A DNA stretch of 33,329 nucleotides from Lachnospiraceae bacterium (GTDB taxonomy: Bacteria; Bacillota; Clostridia; Lachnospirales; Lachnospiraceae): positions 1 through 33,329 of the forward strand of contig JAFSHK010000049.1 in NCBI GenBank assembly GCA_017440375.1, in the 5' to 3' direction. The first letter of the stretch is position 1. Each line of letters starts with the position of its first letter. Positions 9,315 through 12,298 of this stretch are shown one piece after another. The position numbers were made by a program, and so were the translations under genes. Under the pieces are notes generated by a model. The model was not told the origin of the DNA, ran no database searches, and was given only the letters and a program-made list of their open reading frames with translations.

Positions 9315-10124
9315 CTACTCATTCATAACTCTTTCAAGTTCTCCCTTTAGATACAGATTTTCTTTTGTCCCGTAGATAATTGGTGTAATCTTTCCCTCTT
9401 TAACCAAATAGGACAAATTCTGTCTTGAGCATTGCAACATATCACTCGCTCCGGTTGCGTCCACCACATTCCTGCGTACAAAACCATAAAAATCATTTGC
9501 TGTCAAAGGCAATAACAAACCGATTATCCTCAAATCAGAAGTTGGGATTTCAATGGACTCATTAAAAGAAATACTATATCCACCAATGCCCACTTTTACA
9601 CTATTAAACAATTCTCTATTCTTCAAAACATGAGAAATATCCTTGTATTTGTCAACAAGCTTTGCAATATCTACCATTCTTACGGTATTGTCTCTAAACA
9701 TACATACTAGTTGGTTACTCTCCGCCGGAAAACATTCCAATACATTCTTCCTCATTCTGTCCTTAATATCTTCCGGAATCTCCTCCACCTCCGCAATGTA
9801 ACAACTATCCTGAGAGCATCTTCCCTTCGACAAATAAAGAAGAGCCATTTCACTATACCCTTTCAACTTATGATTTTTAAGAATACTGCCAATATTTTGT
9901 CTTCCACTAGGAATTACTCTTTCTTTAACCCACAAAAGGCTAATGTCCCGCGAAACGGTATATATTCCTTTTCTAACCAATCCTTGAAACAATAGCGGAG
10001 CATCCCATTCATCTAAATCCTTACACAATTCAATTATAAAACTTTCTGCCTTTTCATAATAAAACAAATAGCCAATTGCAGATGTTCTATTCAATTCTTC
10101 ATCATAAATTGCATAACTTTTCAT
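9315..10124 (-). CDS. Multi-domain HTH protein paired with HipA-like kinase (candidate antitoxin/regulator)
   Basis: A 269-residue protein I do not recognise as a named family. The N-terminal part (about 1-115) ends in RVIPSGRQNIGSIL, GYSEMALLYLSKGR; this loosely recalls the small N-terminal subdomain of HipA proteins. The middle (about 140-200), with NTVRMVDIAKLV and ELFNSVKVGIGGYSISF, resembles a DUF2442 domain. The end (about 225-262), ATGASDMLQCSRQNLSYLVK, looks like an excisionase/MerR-type helix-turn-helix. The start ATG at 10124 has AAGGTGG 7 bases upstream; GTG at 10130 is possible. It overlaps the 3' end of the kinase gene by 23 bases, so the products are probably made together and may interact. 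The domain calls in the first two parts are inference. Confidence 0.6.
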   Translation of the reverse strand: MKSYAIYDEELNRTSAIGYLFYYEKAESFIIELCKDLDEWDAPLLFQGLVRKGIYTVSRDISLLWVKERVIPSGRQNIGSILKNHKLKGYSEMALLYLSKGRCSQDSCYIAEVEEIPEDIKDRMRKNVLECFPAESNQLVCMFRDNTVRMVDIAKLVDKYKDISHVLKNRELFNSVKVGIGGYSISFNESIEIPTSDLRIIGLLLPLTANDFYGFVRRNVVDATGASDMLQCSRQNLSYLVKEGKITPIIYGTKENLYLKGELERVMNE

Positions 10125-10932
10125 ATTCACACCACCTTGCCCAAAGCATATCCCATATCTTTTTCAAATGCATTTCCGATAATACAGGCGATAAATCTGC
10201 ACACAATATTTCTTTATCCTGCGGTTTTAGTACATATGGAAAAACAGTAGTTTTATCTGCAACGAGACATAAATTATCAAAAGTAGAACGACTACCGATG
10301 AAATTCTGACACGGTTTATCTGCCAATATATCAAACTGTTCTATTTCTTCATCACTATAACAGGAACACAAGAAAGACAAACCGTGATCAAATAATGGTG
10401 CAATTCTTATAGTATGTTTTCGTCCATTTCGAAGCACCTCTATATTAGCACCATGTCGATCTCTATTTAATATCAAATAATCCACCACCAGCATAGTATC
10501 AATATACTTTTGCCAACCATTATTCACACAAAACTCATAACGTGATTCATTCTCTTTTCTATTAATTTGATAATAGTTATCCAGTGCAGATTTCGTTTCT
10601 CCGCGCCTCTTAAAATCATTTGATGCGCACAGCCATGTATCATAGACTTTTCCATCCATCTCAATATCTGCATGAATGAGCTGATATTCCAAATGCTCTA
10701 CCCCCAAAATAGTAAGCAGACGGTCTACAATGATTTCATTCACACATTCATGACCAATAATTCCTTTTTCACTATCAAAATTGGATAACTTATAATATAT
10801 TTTCTCTCCAGCTACCACAGACTGGGACTTTAAAAATGTTCCGGCTGTGCCACTTGAATTTCTTGCATGAGACCACTTAAGATATGTAAGATCCTGTTTC
10901 TCTATAATTACCTTCTGTTGCATTCCAACCAC
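10102..10932 (-). CDS. Compact HipA-like serine/threonine kinase domain protein
   Basis: A 276-residue protein with HipA-type kinase hallmarks. These are a Gly/Ser-rich segment SSGTAG (about 26-31), a likely ATP-contacting Lys48 (YYKLSNF), Glu62/Glu66, the catalytic loop L-N-R-D-R-H-G-A-N at 155-163 (Asp158, Asn163), and the metal aspartate in P-L-F-D-H-G (Asp182). HipA kinases phosphorylate cytosolic targets such as aminoacyl-tRNA synthetases and can arrest growth. The N-terminal HipA subdomain is missing, making the protein much shorter than classic HipA (about 440). GTG at 10932 is used, with GGAGG 4 bases upstream; ATG at 10923 is an alternative. It is the first gene of a two-gene unit with the HTH protein, downstream of a palindrome-covered promoter. 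Its target is unknown. Confidence 0.72.
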   Translation of the reverse strand: MVGMQQKVIIEKQDLTYLKWSHARNSSGTAGTFLKSQSVVAGEKIYYKLSNFDSEKGIIGHECVNEIIVDRLLTILGVEHLEYQLIHADIEMDGKVYDTWLCASNDFKRRGETKSALDNYYQINRKENESRYEFCVNNGWQKYIDTMLVVDYLILNRDRHGANIEVLRNGRKHTIRIAPLFDHGLSFLCSCYSDEEIEQFDILADKPCQNFIGSRSTFDNLCLVADKTTVFPYVLKPQDKEILCADLSPVLSEMHLKKIWDMLWARWCEYEKLCNL

Positions 10933-10967: not shown

Positions 10968-10998
10968 ATTTTGCATTTCCATTTGACGTGCGTCAAAT
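10968..10998 (-). promoter_or_regulatory. Promoter with palindromic operator for the kinase/HTH pair
   Basis: An 18-bp perfect palindrome, ATTTGACGTGCGTCAAAT (10981-10998), contains on the minus strand a -35 TTGACG (10991-10996). A -10 CAAAAT (10968-10973) follows at 17 bases. A protein bound to the palindrome would block the -35, as expected for autoregulation, perhaps by the HTH partner encoded downstream. The promoter is a moderate match (5/6 and 4/6). Confidence 0.6.
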
Positions 10999-11235
10999 AT
11001 TTTCGCACAATATACTAATAAGAAAATGCAATATATGAATGCGCATATGTACCACTATAACATCCCGTCCTCTCATCCAGTTTTTAATTATATCATTCGT
11101 CTCATTGCTTTTATATTTAGCATTGTCTGTCAGGGATATGTATTCATTTTCAAAATCAGCAGTATAAATATCGATGTTGTTATCTACATAACAATAATTT
11201 GTATCTATAAATTCTGAAATTTTTCTAATTCTCAT
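10993..11235 (-). CDS. Doubtful small ORF downstream of the beta-lactamase-like gene
   Basis: An 80-codon frame beginning MRIRKISEFIDTNYCYVDNN. Its ATG overlaps the last codons of the class D beta-lactamase-like gene. The first 50 residues are polar and Asp/Asn-rich and the last 15 are hydrophobic. There is no recognisable family, and the stop falls inside the palindrome of the next promoter. It may be a real, translationally coupled small protein, a decayed gene end, or chance. I see nothing that decides between these. Confidence 0.3.
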   Translation of the reverse strand: MRIRKISEFIDTNYCYVDNNIDIYTADFENEYISLTDNAKYKSNETNDIIKNWMRGRDVIVVHMRIHILHFLISILCENI

Positions 11236-12199
11236 TAGCAAATTTTTTCTTTACTATTTCTCTTGCCATGTTCCCAGTTGCAAGCTGCGTAGCATCATCA
11301 CTTATTATATATACCGCAAAATAGTATGTATGCTGTTCTTTCTCGGCAACACCAACATACCACCCTTCCTTATTTTGGTTTGTTCCAGTTTTGCCATATA
11401 TTGAATACCCGTTCACCTCATCATGCAGCATAACACCTTTCATAATATCTACTTCGTGTTCAGAATAAATACTTTCTTCACCTAATGCTTTTTGCAAAAC
11501 CTGGACTTGCTCCAATGGCGATATCTTTAAGGATGATGCCAACCAAAATCCATTCAATTCCTCACCCGGATTAAGACCAGAGCCAGACCACTCAGATATG
11601 TCACAGTTTCCATAGGACAATTTATTCAGTTCTGATTGAACCTCTTGTTGTCCAACTGCATCAATGATTTGTCTGAAGTACCAGATACAAGATGTTTGGA
11701 AGGCATCCTTCAAATTAACATTCTGATTCCATGAATCGACAGGATATATCGTACCATTGTAATCCATTGTAGAATTCTCATCCACAACTACACTGTTCCT
11801 TAATCCCATCAATGTCGCCACCAGCTTGAATGTTGAATACGGTGAAACCCTTGTTTCTGCTAAAGTTTGATTATATATAGAATATTCAGTCGTTTCTTTA
11901 TTATACAGTACAAAACACCCATTCACTTCGTCAAAGATATGGCTTAAATCTACTTGGACAATGGACATTTCCGGCTCAATAGTTATCTGTTCCTCTTTAT
12001 TAGTGTTGTTCATTGTTACTTTATTATCTACATTCTCGATAATATCAAAATTACTTTTATTCGCCATTGCACCGCCATTATGAACGTCAATAGAATCTGT
12101 GCCGACATATCTAGTGGTATATATAAAACTACCTATTAAAATTAAAATCATCAAAATAATTCCGACCAAAACAAGTGCGTAACGCTTCCACTTAGTCAT
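11225..12199 (-). CDS. Membrane-anchored class D beta-lactamase-like / penicillin-binding protein
   Basis: A 324-residue protein with an N-terminal membrane anchor (about 7-28, YALVLVGIILMILILIGSF), an Asn-rich linker to about 75, and a class D (OXA-type) penicillin-recognising domain. Motifs are S-T-F-K with nucleophile Ser122 and Lys125, S-C-I at 170-172 in place of S-x-V, Y-G-N at 196-198, K-T-G at 270-272, and G-W-Y-V-G around Trp280. Hydrolysis of beta-lactams is plausible. A penicillin sensor domain (BlaR1 type) has the same fold, but no metalloprotease part or blaI-like neighbour is present. The start at 12199 has GGGAGG 5 bases upstream; the frame open to 12271 is ignored. No lipobox cysteine is seen, so it is tethered by the helix. 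Confidence 0.82.
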   Translation of the reverse strand: MTKWKRYALVLVGIILMILILIGSFIYTTRYVGTDSIDVHNGGAMANKSNFDIIENVDNKVTMNNTNKEEQITIEPEMSIVQVDLSHIFDEVNGCFVLYNKETTEYSIYNQTLAETRVSPYSTFKLVATLMGLRNSVVVDENSTMDYNGTIYPVDSWNQNVNLKDAFQTSCIWYFRQIIDAVGQQEVQSELNKLSYGNCDISEWSGSGLNPGEELNGFWLASSLKISPLEQVQVLQKALGEESIYSEHEVDIMKGVMLHDEVNGYSIYGKTGTNQNKEGWYVGVAEKEQHTYYFAVYIISDDATQLATGNMAREIVKKKFANEN

Positions 12200-12298
12200 A
12201 CTCTCCTCCCTTTCATAAGCCCCAATTTCTATAAACCTCAAAGAATGACATTCCTCTGTCATCGAAAGCATCCTTCGCCGAATCTAAAGTACGGCTTT

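Follow-up and report, generated by a model that had tools for sequence, protein, structure and literature searches.

What kind of system is formed by the two overlapping genes at positions 9,315 to 10,932 of contig JAFSHK010000049.1, from a Lachnospiraceae bacterium (assembly GCA_017440375.1)? The window, that is, the whole stretch of 33,329 nucleotides analyzed here, encodes at this place a short kinase and a second protein of composite build, which an earlier note had read as a split HipA system with the toxin gene first and with antitoxin subdomain and DNA-binding domain fused. Sequence comparisons and structure models indicate, with a probability of roughly three in four, that the unit is a bicistronic, self-repressing Hip-kinase toxin-antitoxin module in which the toxin gene comes first. 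The anatomy of the unit is well supported: the gene order, the domains and the conserved pairing all stood as proposed, whereas its function and its toxin-antitoxin nature are inferred.

Both open reading frames (ORFs) lie on the minus strand where they had been placed, and overlap by 23 bp (10102–10124; Table 1). The kinase keeps the catalytic loop NRDRHGAN (residues 156–163, with the catalytic Asp D158) and the metal motif PLFDHG (residues 179–184, with the metal-binding Asp D182), in agreement with the length and residue positions given in the earlier note, and its Gly-rich loop (S26-S-G-T-A-G31) is conserved along with NRDRHGAN and FDHG. Relatives of the kinase were sought in a species-genome collection, which gave 426 pattern stretches, 375 of them encoding kinase relatives; the best 80 of the 375 were analyzed, among which one locus (L068) has its partner cut by the contig end and another (L080) has a frameshifted kinase. 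D158 and D182 are invariant in all 53 sequences of an alignment (A4) of the window with 52 relatives hand-chosen from these 80 loci, down to 59% identity. Pfam, NCBIfam and PHROGs gave mostly weak matches to the two window proteins, NCBIfam nothing useful; for the kinase, Pfam ranked Fam20C (E 1.1e-4) and PI3_PI4_kinase (8e-4) ahead of HipA_C (2.8e-3; 17.8 bits), all below the cut-offs. A fold search matched CtkA, HipT and HipA, with CtkA nearest (17–19% identity to the Helicobacter pylori protein; 3akj, 3akk, 3akl) and PI4K-II scoring as high as HipA; the likeness of the fold extends to PI4K and Fam20. The core fold, the Gly-rich loop and the catalytic and metal motifs are those of a Hip-family kinase, and the motifs and modeled fold together show the core of such a kinase, lacking the N-subdomain 1 whose absence had been claimed beforehand. 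We know of no CtkA partner gene of this kind.

The second gene encodes the partner, whose AlphaFold2 model has a mean predicted local distance difference test score (pLDDT) of 95.1 and which could alternatively start at a GTG (9315–10130, 271 amino acids (aa)). In the fold search, the rows for residues 122–269 were DUF2442 and MerR/Xis, and residues 115–218 were covered by few rows. Pfam listed HTH_17 and DUF2442 for 64 partner members, and gave HTH_17 at E 0.03, below the cut-off, for the window partner itself. The C-terminal helix-turn-helix (HTH) and DUF2442-like middle described in the earlier note are thus backed by the structure and by the matches of relatives. HIRAN was not among the Pfam results for the 64 members, nor in the fold list, absence from the latter being no exclusion.

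Table 1. Coordinates of the two genes, the partner domains and the predicted control region in the window
Feature	Position	Strand	Basis
Hip-family kinase gene, 276 aa, GTG start, without N-subdomain 1	10102-10932	-	ORF and motifs
Partner gene (putative antitoxin and repressor), 269 aa from ATG	9315-10124	-	ORF; AlphaFold2 model; downstream of kinase in relatives
HipS / HipA N-subdomain-1-like domain, partner residues 1-114	9783-10124	-	Fold search and profile comparisons
DUF2442 domain, partner residues 122-207	9504-9761	-	Fold search; Pfam on relatives
MerR/excisionase-type HTH, partner residues 219-269	9318-9470	-	Fold search; Pfam on relatives
Predicted operator, palindrome TTTGACG-NN-CGTCAAA, 50-65 bp upstream of kinase start	10982-10997		Conserved core in fused loci
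Predicted sigma-A promoter	10968-10996	-	-35 TTGACG (10996-10991) inside palindrome, 17-nt spacer, weak -10 CAAAAT (10973-10968)

The first 115 residues of the partner had been said to recall a HipA N-subdomain loosely; residues 1–114 have the fold of that subdomain and of HipS, and profile comparisons agree. A direct PDB profile search with the partner retrieved neither HipS nor HipA (best match 2auw, E 0.09), and neither was found in the PDB with a widened HipS-like alignment. A hidden Markov model (HMM) of the N-domain, run against the ORFs of the fetched loci, matched the upstream-encoded protein in 7/7 short-kinase units with an upstream partner, namely the C-terminal part of HTH proteins in L020, L024, L029, L030, L159 and L171 (E 5e-8 to 6e-4) and a HipS-only protein in L018 (E 4e-6). 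Among the single-chain Hip kinases of 23 loci, six matched at E <= 1.5e-4, four at 0.002–0.06 and 13 not at all, and the match sits just before the kinase domain. Profile-profile comparison of the N-domain with three such sets gave E values of 4.5e-5, 8e-8 and 2e-10 in one build and of 1.3e-4, 8e-7 and 2e-8 in another. The DUF2442 and HTH parts, run as controls, reached no better than 0.066. For the N-domain, comparison with the classical single-chain set yielded a probability of just 54–69%. R69, R75, G101 and D106 are invariant in 19 aligned HipS-like rows from partners, upstream-unit proteins and single-chain kinases. An alignment with 63 relatives hand-chosen from the best 80 loci placed the most conserved of the partner stretches measured at residues 63–84, with W65, R69, P72, R75, Q76 and N77 invariant. 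Trp65 of Escherichia coli HipS inserts next to the Gly-rich loop as a wedge, and neutralization requires it; judged by motif position, without the E. coli HipS sequence in hand, partner R75 rather than W65 would occupy that place.

The pairing of kinase and partner is not due to chance. Conserved adjacency of the two genes had been set as a test beforehand, and a partner ORF lies directly downstream on the same strand in 80/80 kept relatives; 78 of the junctions overlap (by 14 bp in 48, 23 bp in 20, 26 bp in seven and 4 bp in three), and in the other two the genes lie 4 and 23 bp apart. Of 200 sampled genomes of the family, the window's own included, 67 have a match at E <= 0.001 and 16 one at E <= 2.4e-31, and all 16 of these best genomes have the downstream partner, full length in 14 and as the N-domain alone in two (L014, L016). 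Many kinase-relative records are named Lachnospiraceae, Butyrivibrio or Pseudobutyrivibrio, often with a ruminant origin. Beyond the order, full-length partners were found in two genomes of one other family among the 391 genomes of a class sample, and an N-domain search of 398 phylum genomes gave three matches, none beyond the class. The neighborhoods vary, the commonest neighbor family apart from the pair being present in 15/81 loci, and no separate HTH gene is conserved near the unit among the neighbors in the window and its relatives. Overlap, shared direction and conservation of the two genes as a pair, whatever their surroundings, are features of a type II toxin-antitoxin system.

A tree of the kinases (56 rows) unites those with a downstream partner (39 fused, four HipS-only) at a support of 94/97, slightly short of the threshold of the tool; their sister group (99/97) consists of seven kinases with an upstream partner. 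L208, a fifth HipS-only row, is placed among the single-chain kinases at the end of a long branch; branches are also long for several distant rows, which makes their placing unsure. The fusion, with a support of 60/65, may have arisen only once; the HipS-only label needs three changes on this tree, the least forced being two. HipS-only proteins of about 118–157 aa also occur beyond the order, in L199, L200, L208 and L209, with a Hip kinase directly upstream in the first three; in L209, the kinase profile found no Hip kinase within the available stretch. Downstream of the HipS-only pair in L014 (406–1075), two small ORFs resemble a HicA/HicB pair, as recognized by eye.

Upstream of the kinase gene lies a 20-bp palindrome, TATTTGACGNNCGTCAAATA, with a core that recurs across the relatives. 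After 16 of 113 upstream regions that shared a 60-mer with another had been dropped, 97 were left for counting. The core TTGAC-N4-GTCAA (at most one mismatch) occurs in 92/92 distinct fused loci, exactly in 77 of them, L068 being counted as fused although its partner is not complete at the contig end. It occurs in 0/5 loci with a HipS-only partner (L014, L016, L155, L199, L200); L155 is a decayed copy, and for this locus, L199 and L200 the start used was guessed or set at the beginning of the ORF. The Fisher value for this association of operator and HTH, 1.6e-8, ignores relatedness, and the five HipS-only loci do not amount to five independent events, because they may share ancestry. Distance alone fails to explain the tie, since HTH and operator are both missing from L014 (47% kinase identity) but both present in L015, whose kinase is more distant (42%). 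Near-copies included, the best 80 loci hold 137 cores in 23,836 upstream bp versus 19 in 854,661 other bp. An earlier count with near-copies found the operator in 103/106 regions, against a mean of 0.92 and a maximum of four in 50 dinucleotide shuffles; in that earlier set, 47/68 spacings between operator copies lie at 41–45 bp.

The arms of the palindrome hardly vary, while its two central bases do; a subgroup (L009–L011, L013, L141) carries the variant CTTG(A/T)C-rTAy-G(A/T)CAAG. Two operator copies are present in 54 of the 92 distinct fused loci, one in 35 and more than two in three; the window has one. The left arm, TTGAC(A/G), coincides with the -35 box, and a TATAAT-like box (at least 5/6 positions) follows at exactly 17-nt spacing in 66/92 of these loci, perfect in 36; other spacings between 8 and 29 nt account for at most six loci each, except for 9 nt (26/92), where the box may originate in the A+T-rich palindrome flank. 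The -10 hexamer of the window matches at just 4/6 positions. These comparisons show the palindrome as a predicted operator with an embedded -35 box, tied to the presence of the HTH.

A conserved operator and a regulator-like HTH would also suit a phospho-signaling regulator, in which the kinase modifies the partner, as a DNA-binding repressor, or another target on a signal, with the HipS-like domain as an allosteric regulator. The kinase fold, nearest to CtkA and also like PI4K and Fam20, agrees with this, and toxicity is argued by analogy. However, no regulon is visible, because exact sites occur at the module alone and strays are no commoner than a control: in the window's own genome assembly (68% complete), the palindrome with at most one mismatch occurs at a single place, this operon; in 30 further genomes, exact sites occupy nine places in five genomes, all at the module, and one-mismatch strays away from it occur in 7/30, versus 14/30 for a reversed control pattern. 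Moreover, the neighbors of the unit are not conserved, and in L014, L016 and L199 the kinase has next to it a HipS-like protein with no HTH. Such a signaling role is therefore unlikely in our estimate. The broken copies (L155, L080, L038) and the weak -10 in the window might instead betray a relic, with a kinase no longer toxic and a unit that persists as a harmless autoregulated operon; the invariant catalytic residues of alignment A4, and reading frames and operator kept in nearly all loci examined, make this highly improbable.

In the self-repressing toxin-antitoxin module that we favor, the kinase would phosphorylate an essential protein and, by analogy, probably stop growth. Among the targets known for Hip kinases are the aminoacyl-tRNA synthetases GltX and TrpS (PMC8262856). 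The HipS-like domain would sit on the kinase N-lobe, as HipS sits on HipT, and hold the Gly-rich loop in an ATP-incompetent state; crystal structures of HipT show HipS inhibition through this loop. The C-terminal HTH would bind the palindrome over the -35 box and repress the operon, probably more strongly with the kinase bound, while the gene overlap would couple translation and match the supply of partner to that of kinase. Loss or titration of the partner would then leave free kinase. The operator is a directly testable prediction of this mechanism, and in the HipS-only relatives, as natural variants, neutralization stands apart from repression.

The unit can be set beside the known Hip systems. 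A 2021 survey (Gerdes et al.) assigned 1,239 Hip kinases to ten organizations, with Firmicutes accounting for 5% of the kinases (PMC8262856). The word DUF2442 does not appear in that survey, no listed organization is given with DUF2442 or this HTH arrangement, and the two-gene unit is absent from the list of ten; likewise, the open-licence PMC literature yielded no description of a HipS-DUF2442-HTH partner with a Hip kinase. As described there, hipJS has a short Hip kinase gene first and a HipS-like protein second, whereas in the window two more domains, DUF2442 and the HTH, follow the HipS-like part of the partner, and a conserved operator precedes the operon; a kinase followed by a HipS-only antitoxin is instead found in L014, L016, L199 and L200 (PMC8262856). 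The hipIN organization also begins with a short kinase, followed by a protein in which a HipS-like domain is joined to a putative DNA-binding one, but HipN carries HIRAN where the window partner has DUF2442 and an HTH (PMC8262856). The earlier note knew of no described system with this domain order, which holds for the HipS-DUF2442-HTH combination and not for the toxin-first order or the fusion of HipS with a DNA-binding type of domain; novelty is limited to that combination (hipIN, hipJS; PMC8262856). The unit would be a further gene organization beside the ten of the survey, in a thinly represented phylum.

The hipBST systems of E. coli O127 and Legionella (PMC10627512, PMC9325769) resemble the unit in that a core kinase is split from the HipS antitoxin and an HTH repressor is encoded in the operon, and in the window the HipS-like subdomain is likewise encoded apart from the kinase. 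They differ in having three genes in the order B-S-T with a separate HipB, whereas here there are two genes, kinase first, and HipS and a different HTH type share one chain. The Lachnospiraceae units with an upstream HTH protein (L020, L024, L029, L030, L159, L171) also place an HTH, recognized by eye, and a HipS-like part in a single chain, next to a kinase of some 270 aa, but the antitoxin-like gene comes first, the HTH is N-terminal and no DUF2442 was seen. These units may correspond to the hipRG of the 2021 survey, an HTH repressor with a short kinase, whose HipS-like half is not named there.

DUF2442 brings in a second lineage of antitoxins. Members of this family are the antitoxins of DUF4160/DUF2442 modules, of which dhiTA of Dickeya is toxin-first with a promoter repressed by the antitoxin (PMC8198452), and a DUF4160/DUF2442 toxin-antitoxin pair has been proposed on a Thermus plasmid (PMC12724237). 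The window unit shares with these the toxin gene first and a DUF2442 protein second, but their toxin is DUF4160 and not a kinase, and they have no HipS-like domain (PMC8198452, PMC12724237). Because DUF2442 is such an antitoxin family, the partner seems to be chimeric, with parts from the antitoxin families HipS and DhiA. Antitoxin domains of two unrelated toxin families would thereby be joined in one chain, which bears on antitoxin evolution by module exchange. No link between DUF2442 and a Hip kinase was found in the available parts of the open-licence PMC literature on DUF2442.

Five DUF4160/DUF2442 pairs, chosen from ten displayed loci of family and class relatives, were scanned, and in 5/5 (L050, L054, L202, L204, L206) a DUF2442-HTH protein lies directly downstream of the DUF4160 gene. 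The C-terminal HTHs of these proteins are of two types, HTH_59 and XRE/HTH_3, and this two-domain form of DhiA is unmentioned in the available parts of the dhiTA literature. The DUF2442 domain of the chimeric partner might keep a function of its own, neutralizing DUF4160 (DhiT) in trans or sensing a ligand, such as a phage product, that releases the kinase; a single protein would then guard two unrelated toxins, or couple the kinase toxin to a trigger. We regard this as doubtful at best. The gene adjacent to the partner is the kinase and not a DUF4160 toxin, DUF4160 had no match in the window's own incomplete genome, and a DUF4160 gene occurs in 8/14 fusion genomes versus 4/17 others searched (G111, G060, G005, G027); a double-toxin reading is therefore conceivable but not required.

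Release of the kinase by a phage would make the unit an anti-phage abortive-infection module, in which the phage removes or binds the partner, perhaps via DUF2442 or by competition for the operator. The kinase matches the PADLOC candidate family PDC-M03A (best E 3.4e-9), the partner HTH matches mad1 (E 8.8e-6), and a defense role has been proposed for hipIN, hipL and hipRF/hipRG (PMC8262856). One relative was found on a contig of IMG/VR that also carries genes for a phage-lysozyme-like protein and for an OLD-type TOPRIM ATPase, as well as a Fic gene. However, the PDC families are candidates only, a Pfam scan of ten window proteins revealed no phage or known defense gene, and the neighbors at other loci are mixed. 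We treat defense as a tentative possibility, on balance somewhat improbable; it would be a role for the same mechanism and not a different mechanism. On the IMG/VR contig (L141:102–10705), the module stands between an AAA_14 ATPase and the OLD-type TOPRIM ATPase, followed by the Fic gene, with the phage-tail-lysozyme-like gene upstream, and these surroundings are possibly a mobile element with defense cargo. In the window itself, a protein of 348 aa is encoded upstream of the module (11225–12271); it has a transpeptidase domain of the penicillin-binding type (Pfam E 1.3e-30) and, seen by eye, a hydrophobic stretch near the N-terminus.
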